A DNA stretch of 51,402 nucleotides from positions 1-51,402 of the forward strand of contig JADGEE010000008.1 in NCBI GenBank assembly GCA_016744535.1. Direction: 5' to 3'. Below the pieces are notes generated by a model that searched no databases, was not told the origin of the DNA, and saw nothing but the letters and a program-made list of their open reading frames with translations. This stretch comes from Campylobacteraceae bacterium. Its GTDB lineage: Bacteria; Campylobacterota; Campylobacteria; Campylobacterales; BB28. This document shows positions 1 through 11,661 of this stretch, in pieces. How positions within the stretch are numbered: position 1 is the first letter of the stretch; each line of letters starts with the position of its first letter. A program made the position numbers and the translations under genes.

Positions 1-1625
1 TAATAATTTTGAAATTTATTATTAATAGCAGGAAAGAGAGTGATAAAAAGTGGATTCTTTAACTCTATATTTTTTAATATATCTATTAATTTTTCATAAT
101 TTTCTTTAATATAACTCTCTTGATTGTCTCCGTTATAAAATCTTAACCAATCTTCAAACCTAACTAATAGAAAATTAAAATCACTATTTAAATTTGTCAA
201 TAAATCTTGAAAAATTTGATTATATCCTCCAATATTTACATTAACATTTAAATCAAATTTTTTACTAAAATCTTCTATATTCTCTTTTAAGTTATCAATA
301 GTAAAAGTCGAAGATATAAAGACAGAATCTCTATTTAAAAAATTTTTATTAAAAAATTCTATTTTATCAACTTCTATTATTGGATTATTAGTAATAATTT
401 CTACTATTTTTAAAAAATGATTTTTAAAATCATTTATATATTTTCCATATAGTAACTCATTATATTTAAACATTATTTTTAATTCATCTGATGGAAATAT
501 AGTTATATCAAAATTATAATTTGTTTGACTAAAGTTCTCAAAATTTTCAAGTTTAATCTCTTCATTTAATTTTGATTCAGGATAGTTATCAAAAACCATA
601 AGCTCTTCTATTAATTTATCTTTTAACTCATCTTTTAAATTTAAACTCTTCTGAATATCTGCTAATGAGTAGTAGTGATAGGCTTTTGCATTAATTGAAT
701 CACTCATAACTTTTTGAATTAATTCTGTAAAGTTTTCTTTATTAAATTTAACTCTTATAGGAATCGCATTTATAAAAAGCCCTATAATTCTCTCAACTCC
801 CTCTAAATTAGAAGGTCGTCCAGAAATAGTAGCTCCAAAGATTGCATCATTTGTACTATTATATTTTGCTAACATTATTCCAAATATAGATTGAATAATT
901 ATATTTAATGTAACTTCACTTTTATAGGCTATTTGATTTAATTTTTGAGTTATATTATTATCTATTTTAAAATTTAATACTGCGTGTTTATGCTCTTTAG
1001 TATCTTTAAATTTTGGCAAATGAGTAACTCTCTTAAATCCATTTAAATAATTTTTCCAAAACTCTTTGGCACTATCTCTATTTTGATTTTTAAGCCATTT
1101 AATATAATTTGAGTATTGCGTTGCAGGGGCTAAAGTGTAAGAATTATTATTTTTAAGTGCTAAATATATTGTAAAAAGCTCATCTACAATTATTCCCATA
1201 GACCAACCATCAAGGATAATATGGTGTGAACTTAAAACAACTCTATATAAATTTTTTTCTATTTTAAAAATAGCTAACCGTATTAATAAATCTTTTGCTA
1301 AATTAAAATATTTTTTTTTATTTTCTGTTTTGTATTTTTGGATTAATTCTAAATTATCCATCTCTTTATAGTAAATTTTTATTTTTCGTTTTTTAAGTAC
1401 AATCTGTTTAGGTTTTTCACTTTTTTTATATGAAAATACAGTTTTGAATATATCGTGTCTTAAAATTAACTCATTCCAAGCTTGTTCAAACGCTTCAACA
1501 TCAAGTGTACCTATAAAGTCAAAACTTAACTCTTCAAAGTATGGATAAGTTCCATCTTTACGAGTTAAAGAGTGAAATAAAATTCCCTCTTGAAGTGGAC
1601 TTAGTGAATAGATATTTTTAATCAT
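1..1625 (-). CDS. Nonribosomal peptide synthetase, N-terminal part (condensation domain + FkbH-like domain), truncated by window edge
   Basis: The reverse strand is open from an ATG at 1625 to the window edge, about 541 residues, so the gene is partial. The protein opens directly with a condensation domain: SPLQEGILFH near residue 8, and the catalytic HHxxxDGW motif (H134, H135, D139, G140, W141) that catalyses peptide-bond formation. From about residue 430 a second domain begins with ISSTFT, then GGYNQIFQ and VRFEDW (about 492). These are hallmarks of the FkbH/HAD-IIIC-related segment found inside some NRPS chains. No adenylation or carrier domain lies in the window; they would be further left. 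A weak ribosome site (AGGGAT) precedes the ATG. The gene diverges from the rhodanese/ATPase operon, which suggests a shared product. NRPS identity is firm; the product is unknown. Confidence 0.9.
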   Translation of the reverse strand, partial: MIKNIYSLSPLQEGILFHSLTRKDGTYPYFEELSFDFIGTLDVEAFEQAWNELILRHDIFKTVFSYKKSEKPKQIVLKKRKIKIYYKEMDNLELIQKYKTENKKKYFNLAKDLLIRLAIFKIEKNLYRVVLSSHHIILDGWSMGIIVDELFTIYLALKNNNSYTLAPATQYSNYIKWLKNQNRDSAKEFWKNYLNGFKRVTHLPKFKDTKEHKHAVLNFKIDNNITQKLNQIAYKSEVTLNIIIQSIFGIMLAKYNSTNDAIFGATISGRPSNLEGVERIIGLFINAIPIRVKFNKENFTELIQKVMSDSINAKAYHYYSLADIQKSLNLKDELKDKLIEELMVFDNYPESKLNEEIKLENFENFSQTNYNFDITIFPSDELKIMFKYNELLYGKYINDFKNHFLKIVEIITNNPIIEVDKIEFFNKNFLNRDSVFISSTFTIDNLKENIEDFSKKFDLNVNVNIGGYNQIFQDLLTNLNSDFNFLLVRFEDWLRFYNGDNQESYIKENYEKLIDILKNIELKNPLFITLFPAINNKFQNY

Positions 1626-1689
1626 TTTATCCCTTTTTTTAATTATTAAGAGAATCTAAAATTTTTTTATAGTTGATAAAAATTAAAAA

Positions 1690-1706
1690 AAACTATATCA
1701 TAGTTT
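1690..1706. promoter_or_regulatory. Perfect palindrome (candidate operator) overlapping the putative NRPS -10 box
   Basis: AAACTAT-ATC-ATAGTTT is a perfect 7-bp inverted repeat with a 3-bp centre, in the 144-bp gap between the divergent NRPS and rhodanese genes. On the minus strand positions 1700-1692 read TGATATAGT, which resembles an extended -10 (TGnTATAAT-type) for the NRPS. A protein bound here could therefore control one or both directions. It does not match the Fur-box consensus I know. That it is an operator is inference. Confidence 0.4.
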
Positions 1707-1769
1707 CTATGAAATAATTTGGAATAAAAATATTAAAAAAACTAAACCAATATTAGGAATATTAAAATT

Positions 1770-2195
1770 ATGATATTTGACAAAGTATTTAATGAGATAA
1801 ATGAAATTACAAATGAAAAAATAAGTTATTTAGGGGATTTATCTGCAAAAAATGGATTTAATCTATCTTTAGAAGATTCTATTTTTCTTGATGTAAGAAC
1901 TCCACAAGAGTATGAAAATTTACATCCTAAAGGGGCAATTAATGTACCGATTTATTTTAATATAAACGGTAAAGTTATAGAAAATTTAAATTTTGTAAAA
2001 GATATTGATAATATAACTAATAATACTTATAATAAAAAAATTATTATTATCTGTAAAGCAGGTATAAAATCACACTATGCTAGTAATTTATTGGCTAAAA
2101 GTAATTATAATAGTGTATATAATATAACAAATGGTTTTATTAATGATTGGATGGTAAATAATTTACCTACAATTTCAATAACGAATATAGGTTAG
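1770..2195 (+). CDS. Rhodanese-like sulfurtransferase
   Basis: This is a 141-residue single-domain protein. It carries the rhodanese CH2A-like start FLDVRTPQEYE (about residues 39-49), the HPKGAINVP segment, and an active-site loop CKAGIKS with the catalytic cysteine at residue 95. Rhodaneses carry sulfur as a cysteine persulfide and hand it to acceptors. The gene is first in a tight operon with a P-type ATPase (2-bp gap) and a cupin-methyltransferase fusion, and diverges from an NRPS gene. A role in sulfur supply or thiol modification for the locus is plausible but inferred. An AGGA ribosome site lies about 12 bp before the ATG. It could also serve a housekeeping thiol function. Confidence 0.85.
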   Translation: MIFDKVFNEINEITNEKISYLGDLSAKNGFNLSLEDSIFLDVRTPQEYENLHPKGAINVPIYFNINGKVIENLNFVKDIDNITNNTYNKKIIIICKAGIKSHYASNLLAKSNYNSVYNITNGFINDWMVNNLPTISITNIG

Positions 2196-2197
2196 AT

Positions 2198-4237
2198 ATG
2201 TTAATTGAAGTATGCTTAGTTACGGTTACATATTTTGGTTTTAGACTAAAAGAGGAAAAAGATAAAAAAAAGCTTGTAAAAAAGTCTAATATTTATAAAG
2301 ATATGCATAATATTAAAAAAAAGAGAGTATTAGTATCTAAAAAAAATGATTTAGAACAAAGGGAGTTGAGTAAAGAGGAGGAGGAAAAAAAATTAAAGTT
2401 TAATTTAAAAATTAGTTTATCTCAATTAGCAGTAGCTGGTGTACGACATTTTTATCCTCAAATAGCACCTTTGTATTTAGCTATGTATACATACTCTAGT
2501 TTCTCTTTTTTTAAGAATACGGAAAAGTCTTTAAAAAATAAAAAAATTGGCAATAATGTACTAACTTCTGTTATGAGCTTAGTAGCATTGGGTACAGGAC
2601 ACTATGTTGCACTTGGTATATTAAGTGTATCTTATGCTGTGGGGGATTTAATTATTGCAAAAACTAGAAGAGGTTCAGAGAGTATATTAGTAAATAGTTT
2701 TGATAATTTTCCAAGCAAAGTATGGTGTTTAAAAAATAATATTGAAATTGAAATTAATTTAGAAGATATTAGACAAGGTGATGTTGTAATTGTAAATATT
2801 GGAGATACTATAGTTGTAGATGGCGTAGTTGTAGATGGTACTGCAATTGTTGATCAACACACTTTAACAGGAGAGTCTCAACCTGCGGAGAAAACAGTAG
2901 GTGATAGAGTTTTTGCTTCAACACTATTAGTGAGTGGAAAAATATATATACAAGCAGAAAAAACAGGAAAAGAGACAACAATTTCAAATATAGATAATCT
3001 ACTTAATAACTCTATTAACTTTAAATCAAAAATACAATTAAAAGGTGATTTATGGGCAGATAACTCCGCTATACCTTTTCTTACAGCTGCAACAGTTGGT
3101 AGCGTAATATTTAATCCAGCAATAGGACTTGTGATTTTGAGTGCAAGTTATGGTAATGGAATAAGAGTATTAGCACCACTTGTTACATATACTCATACTA
3201 AAATAGCTTCACAAAAGGGTGTATTAGTTAAAGATGGTAGAATATTTGAAAAACTACAAGAGATAGATACTATATTATTTGATAAAACAGGAACTCTAAC
3301 AAATAATAAATTAAAAGTTGGAGAGATTACTATTTACGATAAATATGATAAAAATGAGATTTTAAAATATGCAGCAGCTGCTGAGTGTAAAATGACACAC
3401 CCTATTGCAAAAGCTATATTAAATGAAGCAAAAATTTTAAATTTAGAATTACCTAATATTGTTGATGCTAATTATAAAATAGGATTTGGTATAAGCGTTC
3501 AAATTGATGATAAATTGATACAAGTTGGTAGTGTAAAATATATGAATTTAGAATCAATAAACATAAGTCAAAAAATTAAACAAGTTATGTATAAAACCCA
3601 CGAAGATGGAAACTCCTTAATTATGCTTGCTATTGATAAAAAAATTGTAGGAACTATTGAGATAAAAGCTACGGTCAGACCTGAAGTACAAAAATTAATT
3701 CACGATTTAAGAAAAGAGGGAGTTAAACATATGTATATAGTCTCTGGTGATCACGAACAACCCACAAGAAGATTAGCAAATCTTTTAGACTTAGATGGTT
3801 GTTATTATGATGTATTACCTCAAGACAAATCATCTATTGTTGAACGCTTACAAAAAGAGGGTAAAAAAGTTTGTTTTGTAGGTGATGGTGTAAATGATGT
3901 GATAGCAATGAAAAAAGCTGATGTATCAATCTCTTTAATAGGAGCAACAGTTATAGCAACAGATGTAGCAGATGTAATATTAATGGATGGTTCATTAGTT
4001 CATTTATGTGATTTAATTAATGCTTCTAAAAACTTAGATAAGGATCTTAGTAAAATGTTTAGAACATCTGTAATACCAAGTGCTATTATTTTATCTACTA
4101 TACCTTTTGGTATAGGATTTACAGCAGCAATTATTGTTAAAAATGTGGTTTTTACTATAAATATGAGAAGTGTATTAAAACCATTAAGAAAACATAAAAA
4201 AAAGAGTTCTAAAACAAAATATATTAGCAAAAATTGA
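2198..4237 (+). CDS. P1B-like (heavy-metal type) P-type ATPase lacking the CPx motif
   Basis: This 679-residue membrane pump has all the catalytic P-type ATPase motifs: actuator loop TLTGES (about 224-227), phosphorylation motif DKTGTLT (D362), nucleotide-site CKMTHP (HP near 400) and hinge GDGVND (about 562). The overall layout matches P1B metal exporters. Two expected features are missing. There is no N-terminal CxxC metal-binding domain, only a Lys/Glu-rich stretch. In the membrane helix that normally carries CPC/SPC the sequence reads SYGNGIRVLAP (about 317-327), without cysteine or the usual proline. The substrate is therefore unclear: an atypical metal, a metal-metallophore complex or another small cation. 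It lies between a rhodanese and a thiol-dioxygenase/methyltransferase fusion, opposite an NRPS. Confidence 0.85.
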   Translation: MLIEVCLVTVTYFGFRLKEEKDKKKLVKKSNIYKDMHNIKKKRVLVSKKNDLEQRELSKEEEEKKLKFNLKISLSQLAVAGVRHFYPQIAPLYLAMYTYSSFSFFKNTEKSLKNKKIGNNVLTSVMSLVALGTGHYVALGILSVSYAVGDLIIAKTRRGSESILVNSFDNFPSKVWCLKNNIEIEINLEDIRQGDVVIVNIGDTIVVDGVVVDGTAIVDQHTLTGESQPAEKTVGDRVFASTLLVSGKIYIQAEKTGKETTISNIDNLLNNSINFKSKIQLKGDLWADNSAIPFLTAATVGSVIFNPAIGLVILSASYGNGIRVLAPLVTYTHTKIASQKGVLVKDGRIFEKLQEIDTILFDKTGTLTNNKLKVGEITIYDKYDKNEILKYAAAAECKMTHPIAKAILNEAKILNLELPNIVDANYKIGFGISVQIDDKLIQVGSVKYMNLESINISQKIKQVMYKTHEDGNSLIMLAIDKKIVGTIEIKATVRPEVQKLIHDLRKEGVKHMYIVSGDHEQPTRRLANLLDLDGCYYDVLPQDKSSIVERLQKEGKKVCFVGDGVNDVIAMKKADVSISLIGATVIATDVADVILMDGSLVHLCDLINASKNLDKDLSKMFRTSVIPSAIILSTIPFGIGFTAAIIVKNVVFTINMRSVLKPLRKHKKKSSKTKYISKN

Positions 4238-4275
4238 TTTAATTAGAATTATAAAAGAGTAAAAAAGGAGTTAAA

Positions 4276-5907
4276 ATGGAAGGAATAGGTTATGAAAATT
4301 TATCAAAGTCATTACAAAATATTGCAAGAGGCTTAGAGATTGAAAATTATATGGATTCTGATAAATTAGCTAATTTAGTTGAATCCTCAAATGTTAAATT
4401 AGAAGATTTAGAACCTTGGGCAGAATTTAATCATAGTCAAATTCATAGTTATGGAAGACGAATGTTACATAAAGGTAGAAATTTTGAAATTATGTTAATG
4501 TCTTGGTATCCAGAAGACTTTTCAAGTATACATGACCACGGTTATGCGAACTGGGGAATAGTTCAAGCACACGGAAATTTTGAACACGCAGTATTTAAAG
4601 TTTCAGATGAACATATAACAACAGTTCTAAGAGAGAATATTAAATCTTCTAATATTATAAAAGTGTCAAATGAATTAATTCATCAATTGGGAAATCCAAG
4701 TAATAATAATATTTTAAGTTTACATATTTATGGTAGAGATGAAAATAAAAATGATATTACAAGTCATGCAAGAATTTTTGACTTAGATGAAAATAAGGTA
4801 CAAAGGGCAGATGGAGGTATGTTCTTAGCTTTACCTGAACCTGAAATAAAAGTAAGAGAGCAGATATTAAAACCTGATTATGCTACGTGGTTAAGACATA
4901 CAACAGAATTAATTAAAAGATTACAAAAAGCAAAAGATACAGGTATCGAGTTTGATAATAAAAATTTAGAAGATCTTATTAGTAAATTTTTAAGTAAAGA
5001 TAAATTTCAAGAGATATTAACTAACTTAGAATATCATACTGATTTAGAAGGTTATGTAACCGATACCAAATTTTGGAAGCTTTTTAAATGGGAATTAATA
5101 CGGGCAGCAGAATTACATATTAGGTTATCATCCTCAAAGTTGAGTGATTTAGACTCTTTTTCTACATATGCAATACAATATGATGCAATTATTGGTCAGC
5201 CTTGTTTGGATGATTTTACAGCTAATTATATTAACTTTTTTAAAGATAAATATAATATTGATTTTACTACATCTTCTTTATTATCTGTAGGTTGTGGTAC
5301 AGCATTGACTGAATTATATATGCAGAATAATTTAGGTATAAAGCATAATGATCTTTTAGGTATAGATGTCTCTGAAGCTATGGTAAAAGTGGCACAAAAA
5401 AGGATTAATGCAAAAGTTGGAGATGTATTAAAACTACAAACAAATCAAAAATGGGATTTAATATATATTGGATTAAACGCATTACAATATCTTCCTCACG
5501 ATAAATTAGAACTATCTATTAAAAATTTAGCTAATGAGTTAAAAATAGGTGGATACTTTTTTGGTGACTTTGTGACATCTGATCATATTAGAAATTATCC
5601 CAATCTACTTACTTCTAAAGATAAAACTATTATCTCTTTAAGAACACCTAAACTTATTGAAAAAGATGGATTTATGTATCAATGTAGTGAAATAGTTAAT
5701 TTAAATAGTCAAGGTGAATCTTTAAAAATTACTTACGAGGGTAAACATTATAGATATCTGCCCACTATTAGCAAAATAAGAGGATATTTTGAAAATTCAT
5801 TTAAAGGAAAAGTAGATCTATACGATGCTGTTAGTTTAAAAGTTATTAAAGATACAGATGATACTTGTAGTTCAACAAGGTATATAATAATAGCACAAAA
5901 AGAGTAA
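4276..5907 (+). CDS. Fusion: cysteine dioxygenase-like cupin + SAM-dependent methyltransferase
   Basis: This is a 543-residue two-domain protein. The N-terminal part resembles cysteine dioxygenase: HDHG with H86 and H88, the second cupin motif with H136, and a conserved SLHIYG segment (about 147-152). This is the three-histidine iron site of thiol dioxygenases. A helical linker follows. From about residue 335 a class I methyltransferase begins with SVGCGTA, followed by GIDVSEAM and the acidic GDV segment. A strong AAAGGAG ribosome site precedes the ATG. It is the last gene of the rhodanese-ATPase operon. Oxidation of a cysteine-like or thiol group plus methylation is inferred; the substrate is unknown. 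I do not recall a characterised protein with this fusion. Confidence 0.8.
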   Translation: MEGIGYENLSKSLQNIARGLEIENYMDSDKLANLVESSNVKLEDLEPWAEFNHSQIHSYGRRMLHKGRNFEIMLMSWYPEDFSSIHDHGYANWGIVQAHGNFEHAVFKVSDEHITTVLRENIKSSNIIKVSNELIHQLGNPSNNNILSLHIYGRDENKNDITSHARIFDLDENKVQRADGGMFLALPEPEIKVREQILKPDYATWLRHTTELIKRLQKAKDTGIEFDNKNLEDLISKFLSKDKFQEILTNLEYHTDLEGYVTDTKFWKLFKWELIRAAELHIRLSSSKLSDLDSFSTYAIQYDAIIGQPCLDDFTANYINFFKDKYNIDFTTSSLLSVGCGTALTELYMQNNLGIKHNDLLGIDVSEAMVKVAQKRINAKVGDVLKLQTNQKWDLIYIGLNALQYLPHDKLELSIKNLANELKIGGYFFGDFVTSDHIRNYPNLLTSKDKTIISLRTPKLIEKDGFMYQCSEIVNLNSQGESLKITYEGKHYRYLPTISKIRGYFENSFKGKVDLYDAVSLKVIKDTDDTCSSTRYIIIAQKE

Positions 5908-8808: not shown

Positions 8809-10347
8809 ATGTCAAAAGATAAAATTCAAAATTTTAATATTTTATATGTTGAAGATGAAGAGATAATAAGAGTTCATACAGCAAGAATTTTGGGAAGAAT
8901 TATAGAAAAAGAGAATATTTTTATAGCTCAAAATGGAGCAGAAGGTCTCCAAGCATTTGAAACTGTGAAGATAGATTTAGTAATTAGCGATGTTATGATG
9001 CCTATCTTAGATGGACTTGTTATGATTGAAGAGATTAAAAAGATAGATAAAAAAGTTCCTATTATTTTAACAACTGCATTTGATTCACCAGAGTATTTTT
9101 TAAAGGCAATTGAGCTAAACATAGATAAATACGCAATAAAGCCAATTTCAGGTGCAAAACTTAAAAACATTATATTAGATATATATAAAAAGACTCTACT
9201 TAAAAGAGAATTAAGTGAACAGAGTAAACTATTAAATGAGTATAAACACGCAATAGATGAGAGTTCAATCGTATCTAAAGCTGATAAAAAAGGTAGAATA
9301 ACTTATGTAAATGACCTATTTTGTCAATATTCTGGTTATGTTCGAGAGGAGTTAATAGGAAAACCTCATAATATAGTGAGACATCCTGAAACAGATTCTA
9401 AGATTTTTAAAAATTTATGGAATACGATTTTAGATAAAAAAATTTGGCGAGGAAGAATTAAAAATAGAACAAAAAATGGAGGCTTTTATATTGTTGAAAC
9501 TGTAATTACTCCAATTTTAAATTCAAAAGGTGAAATTAAAGAGTTTATCTCAATTAGGCAAGATGTAACAGATTTTGTAAAAGTTGGAAGGGAATTAATA
9601 GAGCAAAAACACAAAGAGAAAGAGAATGAGAAGAGACACTTAGAAGAGCTTCATAAGACAAAAGATTCATTTTTAGTTGTATTCACTCACGAGCTTAAAA
9701 CTCCACTAAATGCTATTATAAATTTTGCTTCTTTTGCAATTAGAAGACTTAATAAACCTGATATAAAAAGTAAAGAGAAAATCATAGATATGATTGAAAC
9801 TGTAAAAGAGAATGGTCACGATATGTTAGATATTGTAAATTCAATATTAGATATCTCAAAACTAAAAGCTAATAAAATGACTTTTGTAATAACTAATTTT
9901 GATATGAATGATGTAGTAGAAGAGATAGTTCAAAGATATTCATCTCTAATTGAAAAAGATGGCATAGAGATTAAATATGATTTTAATCATCAAAATATTA
10001 AGATTTATAGTGATAGAAATAGAGTAAAACAGCTTTTATCTAATTTAATATCAAATGCCATAAAATATGGAGATAATTTAATTAAAATTTCTACAAAATT
10101 AGAGAGTGAAAAATTAATTTTAATACTTGAAGATAATGGAAAAGGTATTAAAAATAAAGATGGAATTTTTGAACTTTTTGAGCAAGATGAGAGTGACGAT
10201 ATGAAAAGAACTGCAAAAGGAACAGGTGTAGGGTTACATTTTGTAAAACTTTTATGTGATGGACTTGATATTGATTTAAGCTTAAAAGATTCAGAAAGCT
10301 TAGGTGGAGCAGAATTTATTTTAAAATTTAAAATTAAGGAGAAATAG
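8809..10347 (+). CDS. Hybrid histidine kinase with N-terminal receiver domain (REC-PAS-HisKA-HATPase)
   Basis: 512 residues with no membrane segment, so cytoplasmic. Domains in order: receiver (about 8-130) with phosphoacceptor D61 in SDVMMP; PAS (about 150-255) of the Aer-like kind with NIVRHPE; a short coiled linker; HisKA with the H box FTHELKTPLN; HATPase with DNGKGI and GTGVGLHF. The receiver placed before the kinase suggests that the kinase itself receives a phosphosignal. It begins one base after the parA stop and ends directly against the next response regulator, so the pair is cotranscribed and probably cognate. Confidence 0.9.
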   Translation: MSKDKIQNFNILYVEDEEIIRVHTARILGRIIEKENIFIAQNGAEGLQAFETVKIDLVISDVMMPILDGLVMIEEIKKIDKKVPIILTTAFDSPEYFLKAIELNIDKYAIKPISGAKLKNIILDIYKKTLLKRELSEQSKLLNEYKHAIDESSIVSKADKKGRITYVNDLFCQYSGYVREELIGKPHNIVRHPETDSKIFKNLWNTILDKKIWRGRIKNRTKNGGFYIVETVITPILNSKGEIKEFISIRQDVTDFVKVGRELIEQKHKEKENEKRHLEELHKTKDSFLVVFTHELKTPLNAIINFASFAIRRLNKPDIKSKEKIIDMIETVKENGHDMLDIVNSILDISKLKANKMTFVITNFDMNDVVEEIVQRYSSLIEKDGIEIKYDFNHQNIKIYSDRNRVKQLLSNLISNAIKYGDNLIKISTKLESEKLILILEDNGKGIKNKDGIFELFEQDESDDMKRTAKGTGVGLHFVKLLCDGLDIDLSLKDSESLGGAEFILKFKIKEK

Positions 10348-11661
10348 ATGAAAAAAATATTAATTGTTGATGATAGTAAAACAAATAGAGCCACAATAGG
10401 GTATATGTTAGATGATTGGTGTGAAGACAATGAAGTTGAGCTTGTAATGAAAGAGGCTACGGATGGTGTAGAAGCTCTTGAAATTTGTAAAAACACACAC
10501 TTTGATTTGATTTTTATGGATATTATGATGCCAAATATGAATGGTATTGAAGCTACTACAGAGATTAGAAAAATTGCTAAAAAAGAGACTATGATTGTAG
10601 CTGTTTCGGCATTAGATGATGATAAGAGTAAAAACGAAATTTTACAAAATGGAGCAGAAGATTATATAACAAAACCGATTAATGAAGATATATTTAGAAA
10701 GAGAGTTGCAAATTATTTAAGTCTGATTGAGAGTAGAAAACATACAAAATTTAATGCTGAAGCCGTCAATGTTATTGATAATAAAATATACTCAAGAAGA
10801 TTAACTTTTATTGTAAAAGATGAATTAACTCTCTCTGAATTTTGGGATTTTTACCTATTTGATGATTCTAATTGTAAATATAGAGATAAATTAACAGATT
10901 TGATTAGAGTTATTTATGGATTGGGTCTTTTACAAGTAAAATTAAAATATAACTTTGAAATTACAGTTGAAGAGGGTGACGAGACAATATTTTTTACTAT
11001 GAATAATATAAAATTATTAAATCAAAATATTGTAGAGAGAATTATTTCAAAAAACTATACTTTAAGTGAGCATAAGATAGACGAAGATAGAGTTAGTTTT
11101 CAATTTAATAAGAGTTGTGAAACTGTCACTAATGAAGAGTCTAAAACAGAGATAAAAGAAGAGATTAAAACAGAGATAAAAGTTGAAGAAGTAGAGATTC
11201 AAAAGAGTGAAGATAAACTTCAAATATTTGATTTTATAGAAGAGGAAGATATAGAAGAGCTTGAAAGTCTTGCACACGAATTACAATCAATGATGATGTT
11301 AGTTGGAAGTTCTGAATTAGAAGATGAAGAAGTTTTAGAAATTGCAAGTTATATTTCTCACTTCTCTAAAATTTTAACAACTTATAATGAAACTTATGCA
11401 ATTTCAACTGCTTTAACCACTCTTTCAGGAGATATAACTAACAATGTTGAAACTTTTAAAGAGAAATCAAAAGATATTGGAATGCTTTGTGAGTCATTTA
11501 ATAAGGATTTAACTATTTGGATTAGAAAACTTTTTTATGATGGGGCACCAAGTATAGACTTTTTAGATAGCTCTATTATCTCAAATGCAAATATGATTTC
11601 AAACTTTATTACTCCAACATCTGAAACAGTTGAAAAAGTTGATGATATTTTTGATTTTTAG
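10348..11661 (+). CDS. Response regulator with large uncharacterised C-terminal region
   Basis: 437 residues. The N-terminal receiver (1-125) has the acidic pair D8-D9, phosphoacceptor D58 in MDIMMP and a conserved lysine in the YITKP motif. Residues about 135-260 form a mixed alpha/beta region I do not recognise. A Glu/Lys-rich linker (about 265-290) follows, then a helical region (about 300-425) vaguely like a phosphotransfer or four-helix bundle. There is no DNA-binding domain, so its output is probably protein-protein contact. It starts directly after the upstream kinase stop codon. Its function in the ParA/STAS module is unknown. Confidence 0.8.
   Translation: MKKILIVDDSKTNRATIGYMLDDWCEDNEVELVMKEATDGVEALEICKNTHFDLIFMDIMMPNMNGIEATTEIRKIAKKETMIVAVSALDDDKSKNEILQNGAEDYITKPINEDIFRKRVANYLSLIESRKHTKFNAEAVNVIDNKIYSRRLTFIVKDELTLSEFWDFYLFDDSNCKYRDKLTDLIRVIYGLGLLQVKLKYNFEITVEEGDETIFFTMNNIKLLNQNIVERIISKNYTLSEHKIDEDRVSFQFNKSCETVTNEESKTEIKEEIKTEIKVEEVEIQKSEDKLQIFDFIEEEDIEELESLAHELQSMMMLVGSSELEDEEVLEIASYISHFSKILTTYNETYAISTALTTLSGDITNNVETFKEKSKDIGMLCESFNKDLTIWIRKLFYDGAPSIDFLDSSIISNANMISNFITPTSETVEKVDDIFDF

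Follow-up and report, generated by a model that had tools for sequence, protein, structure and literature searches.

The locus studied here occupies the left end of contig C129, from its edge, in a Campylobacteraceae genome of 3.02 Mb in 174 contigs, whose relatives in our searches were Campylobacterota; the whole stretch of 51,402 nucleotides that was analysed is called the window. A nonribosomal peptide synthetase (NRPS) gene on the minus strand (3-1625; PF00668, E 2e-96), cut by the contig edge, faces three genes on the plus strand across a divergent intergenic region of 144 bp (1626..1769, from the ORF coordinates). These are a single-domain rhodanese of 141 aa (1770-2195; PF00581, E 1.3e-13), a P1B-like P-type ATPase of 679 aa (2198-4237), assigned by the TIGR01525 model (377 bits), alignments and a tree, and a cysteine-dioxygenase-methyltransferase fusion (CDO-MT, 4276-5907; CDO_I 3e-8 plus class I methyltransferase 9e-10). 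Each of the four genes has an open reading frame and matches its family, and the gaps between the plus-strand genes, 2 bp from rhodanese to ATPase and 38 bp from ATPase to CDO-MT, suggest that these three genes form a single operon. The divergent four-gene arrangement described in the sequence-only reading was thus confirmed, and so were its sulfurtransferase, as the rhodanese has both the PF00581 fold match and the active-site cysteine loop CKAGIKS, and its thiol dioxygenase fused to a methyltransferase, for which PF05995 and PF13649/PF08242 matches were found in one gene. The GC content of the locus is not distinctive (25.5% vs 25.8%), and promoter-like matches in the 144-bp intergenic region were no commoner than in shuffles.

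The N-terminal condensation (C) domain of the NRPS (354..1619, minus strand; PF00668, E 2.3e-96) has an intact HHxxxDG motif (HHIILDG) and by eye appears to be of the DCL or 'SPLQEG' type. It is followed by the N-terminal half of an FkbH region (3..353, minus strand), cut by the contig edge. Taken by itself, this half gave no FkbH call in Pfam, but it could be aligned with the N-terminal part of a complete FkbH protein from Niallia (L063). A condensation-domain search of the genome pointed to the contigs C129, C26, C58 and C10. Contig C26 terminates within an FkbH domain for which the matching N-terminal half is the edge of C129, and domain searches identified there (C26:26060-31177, minus strand) the HAD half of FkbH (TIGR01686, 287 bits) followed by PCP-C-A-PCP-TE. 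The genome holds exactly one FkbH HAD half, on C26, and one N-terminal half, on C129; the two contig ends do not overlap, and alignment to the uninterrupted Niallia FkbH places a gap of about 24 residues, or about 70 bp, between them. We infer that C129 and C26 carry one NRPS gene, with a join that is unbridged by any read seen. The joined gene would read C-FkbH-PCP-C-A-PCP-TE, that is, a glycerate-loading module, one amino-acid module and a thioesterase, and its motifs are intact on both contigs (C domains HHIILDG and HHIISDG, A domain YTSGSTG, two PCP GGxS, TE GYSIG). The earlier proposal of an NRPS with N-terminal condensation and FkbH-like domains, against which a lack of adenylation and carrier domains further left would have counted, therefore stands: C26 carries the A, PCP and TE domains, together with the HAD half of FkbH.

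The HAD half contains the DxDxT motif (DCDNT), with columns that are invariant with three relatives, and a PCP follows directly after FkbH in a module without an A domain. FkbH domains in NRPSs take the place of an A domain and load glycerate, as in the vioprolide and cystomanamide lines (PMC8949500), and this points to a product of the ester or lipopeptide type. Those lines have an FAAL plus an FkbH module, whereas here an FAAL-type line lies on another contig of the genome; in the NRPS of the window the condensation domain before FkbH could form a glycerate ester, the synthetase is on its own, with a single further module before the TE, and the A-domain pocket is unlike a standard code. We know of no ATPase, rhodanese or CDO-MT in the vioprolide and cystomanamide lines. 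Campylobacterota are the source of few known natural products. The NRPS-PKS for barnesin A from Sulfurospirillum belongs to the same bacterial class and, like the NRPS of the window, begins with a C domain, but it has a different domain order and a trans-AT PKS part, and FkbH is not mentioned for it (PMC13096860).

Relatives of the FkbH-NRPS were taken from genome contigs as the best 80 loci among the matches listed, and CDO-MT, rhodanese or an ATPase of the clade described below was found at 0 of these 80. A counterpart over the full length was found in a Campylobacterota MAG labelled Helicobacter cetorum, isolate SulCav (L073), where an NRPS is collinear with C129 plus C26 through the TE. 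Its A-domain pocket, DAKN.G.DIK as read by eye, is near-identical to the DAKNLGLDIK of the A domain on C26; pocket codes were read by hand with GrsA as the reference. As the L073 pocket is nearly the same and no CDO-MT was found in the L073 genome, the idea of an A domain specific for cysteine sulfinate made by the CDO, with Lys at 239, was dropped. Four other loci (L068, L069, L075 and L118) have the first part of the domain order in common and the pocket DASTIAAVCK. The neighbours of the L073 NRPS are an ABC exporter, an SPFH gene and a periplasmic-binding gene, and SPFH and DUF697 genes adjoin the NRPS in L075, L117 and L122, with a periplasmic-binding gene also in L075 and L117. The exact four-gene set of the window was found nowhere else in the genomes and loci searched; with none of the best 80 FkbH loci carrying the partners and no CDO-MT relative of full length, the expected co-occurrence of all four genes in other genomes was not borne out.

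The ATPase scores above the cut-off of the heavy-metal family model (TIGR01525, 377 bits vs 346) and contains the core motifs TGES, DKTGT, HP and GDGVND of the P1B catalytic core. P1B ATPases are defined by a metal motif of the CPC/CPH/SPC type (or SC) in the helix before DKTGT (PMC4932525). In the window ATPase this helix, M4, reads SASYGNGIRVLAP and CPC, SPC and SC are absent; a metal motif was found there in 0 of 10 clade members, and a Pfam search of the ATPase gave no match to an HMA domain, which is common in P1B ATPases but not universal. Thus the 'metal-type' label given to the ATPase from the sequence holds for the family model and fails for the membrane metal motif. In a maximum-likelihood tree of 25 rows, built with a quick method, the ten sequences of the clade lie on one side of a branch with 100% SH-aLRT. 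The ATPase has its catalytic domains and HP motif in common with CopA, ZntA and P1B-6/FezB, and it differs from them in lacking the metal motif and HMA domain and in belonging to a separate clade that lies by NRPS or SPFH/SBP genes. Among 397 Campylobacterota genomes, high-scoring members of the clade were present only in this genome, in two copies. Within the genomes behind the FkbH loci, a Thiomargarita MAG has four copies with 35-45% identity and two Magnetococcales have one copy each, to which a search of their class added one (3 of 48 genomes); two further relatives (G404 and G401) have partial copies.

An iron pump akin to that of ferrosomes (P1B-6, FezB-like), with a site made of other residues, is a highly improbable account of this ATPase. 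The next-best matches in the phylum, at about 30-32% identity, do bear the motif QADYSCALKLATP, and one of them lies downstream of a ferritin-like gene in a Campylobacterota MAG (L061, 4591-8497), but these ATPases, which by their motif we take to be P1B-6, form their own clade apart from that of the window ATPase, whose members have non-coordinating residues in place of the SC pair. The L061 stretch is itself a possible ferrosome-type locus.

The NRPS-ATPase association proposed from the sequence recurs independently in Magnetococcales. In two loci (L190, 2327-11292; L191, 2291-13066) an ATPase of the clade overlaps an A-methyltransferase-PCP-reductase NRPS gene by 4 bp, with a PCP-C gene upstream in the operon; the group is completed by an SDR in L190 and by an ABC exporter and, by eye, a phosphopantetheinyl-transferase-like gene in L191. 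As the two loci come from near relatives, we treat them as a single event. The third Magnetococcia copy (L193) lies with SBP, DUF697, C39-ABC and SPFH genes. The second copy in our own genome, on contig C86, belongs to an operon that also holds a pair of RaSEA-like radical SAM genes, an SDR, an EgtB-like gene and a carboxynorspermidine decarboxylase, followed on the other strand by DUF697, ABC exporter, SPFH and SBP genes. By its content this cluster resembles a locus for biosynthesis and secretion that is as yet uncharacterised. The same cluster (G000:C86; L058, 6361-14975; L194, 1138-5360) also encodes a PP2C-type phosphatase and a 182-aa protein without a Pfam match. The four Thiomargarita copies and those of G401, G404 and Methylobacterium had no NRPS or SPFH/SBP-type neighbours in the stretches read. 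The ATPase clade and the FkbH-NRPS family thus have overlapping partners (SPFH, SBP, DUF697 and ABC genes). A link between NRPS and ATPase appears plausible on these gene neighbourhoods, and a metal role does not; our confidence in the link is moderate, given one independent operon plus shared neighbours.

The CDO-MT consists of a cysteine-dioxygenase-like cupin (4276..4941, plus strand; residues 1-222; PF05995, E 2.6e-8) and a class I SAM methyltransferase (5266..5904, plus strand; PF13649 8.5e-10, PF08242 3.4e-8; core residues 336-429). The cupin matches the structure of Bacillus subtilis CDO (PDB 3eqe, 1e-8), and in an alignment with this protein and cyanobacterial relatives it keeps the three histidine iron ligands, a YGR motif with the Arg60-like residue for the carboxylate, and the Tyr157 equivalent, which are common to B. 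subtilis CDO and the cyanobacterial CDO-like family. It is nearer (about 40%) to the cyanobacterial family than to B. subtilis CDO: up to residue 222 or so it is 37-40% identical to single-domain proteins in 5 of 386 genomes of the Leptolyngbya phylum. The operons of these nearest CDO kin found also encode an EamA transporter, a glutathione-synthetase-like ATP-grasp protein and a GNAT (L170-L174, order EamA / ATP-grasp with GNAT / CDO-like). An inserted ORF of 381 aa (10271-11416) interrupts the CDO gene of Leptolyngbya PCC 7375 (L170). The fused methyltransferase was seen only in our genome and is absent from every relative found. A full-length CDO-MT relative was found in none of 397 Campylobacterota genomes, none of the 386 genomes of the Leptolyngbya phylum and none of 399 genomes of the Thiomargarita phylum, the last being a sample searched with no positive control, and no CDO-MT relative was detected in plasmids or by an exact-peptide scan of genome contigs. 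A single-sequence AlphaFold prediction gave no usable model (pLDDT 33). A sulfide-detoxification operon of the cst type was considered for the sulfur genes and rejected, with no persulfide dioxygenase or SQR partner adjoining.

The sequence-only reading had favoured a metal-handling, sulfur-modified peptide. A metallophore locus, with a sulfur-modified chelator as the NRPS product and its metal as the cargo of the ATPase, would agree with the score of the ATPase above the heavy-metal cut-off and with sulfur enzymes that could make soft ligands. Neither half of this proposal was upheld: the ATPase is without CPC, SPC or SC and without an HMA domain, and the NRPS has no siderophore-type domain, with no heterocyclisation (Cy), catechol or hydroxamate domain on C26 and an FkbH that points to an ester or lipopeptide. 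We therefore regard a metallophore as quite improbable, and, for any gene cluster, a 'heavy metal translocating P-type ATPase' label as weak evidence of one. It is possible, though we hold it only tentatively, that the genes are neighbours by chance and that rhodanese, ATPase and CDO-MT are an independent unit for thiol or sulfur handling, placed opposite the NRPS by accident. The failure to find the four-gene set elsewhere, the lack of all three operon genes with the NRPS relative in L073, the unrelated cyanobacterial operons of the nearest CDO kin and the generic nature of the rhodanese are consistent with this. The tight divergent layout, the separate NRPS operon of the ATPase clade in Magnetococcales and the SPFH/SBP/DUF697/ABC partners that both families have elsewhere argue against it.

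We give a probability of about 50% to the reading that these genes are one arm of the route to a nonribosomal peptide that contains glycerate and is probably a lipopeptide, together with tailoring enzymes and a P-type pump whose substrate is not a metal. The first C domain would accept a chain, acyl or peptidyl, that may come from another synthetase of the genome (C58 or C10), and join it to glycerate, which FkbH would load from 1,3-bisphosphoglycerate, as is known for the family. The second module would add one further amino acid and the TE would release the product. The facing operon, which we infer to be tied to the NRPS, would supply tailoring and transport: the CDO-like domain may oxidise a cysteine-type thiol to the sulfinate, the fused methyltransferase may methylate product or substrate, the rhodanese may handle sulfane sulfur, and the P-type ATPase may have a cargo that is not a transition metal but might be the product itself, or else a lipid or ion that its export requires. 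The pump has kin in peptide-making gene groups of distant bacteria, and its role may therefore lie with the molecule made here rather than with a metal. To our knowledge no P-type ATPase has been shown to serve a nonribosomal peptide pathway; literature searches for such a case found none, and no relevant paper turned up that treats FkbH, P-type ATPase and NRPS together. A clade that lacks the CPx motif, has kept its motor and lost its metal site, and recurs by NRPS and secretion genes makes the idea of a pump for nonribosomal peptides testable. A wider reading, which we consider rather unlikely, is that the CPx-less ATPases, as found in Campylobacterota, Magnetococcia and large sulfur bacteria, make up a new functional class of pumps for the making or export of nonribosomal products, moving product, lipid or counter-ion together with SPFH, DUF697, SBP and ABC exporter proteins.

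The two other synthetase lines of the genome are on C58 and C10. C58 encodes FAAL-ACP-KS-ACP-aminotransferase-C-A-PCP-C, in which we take the first AMP-binding domain to be an FAAL. C10 encodes A-PCP-C-A-PCP-C-A and is open at both ends; it joins neither C129 nor C26 by end overlap. The pocket codes of C58 and of the second C10 module are threonine-like, with the GrsA sequence as ruler. The two condensation domains on the 6.7-kb contig C10 (L046) have equal scores and apparently identical sequence, from either a recent duplication or an assembly effect.
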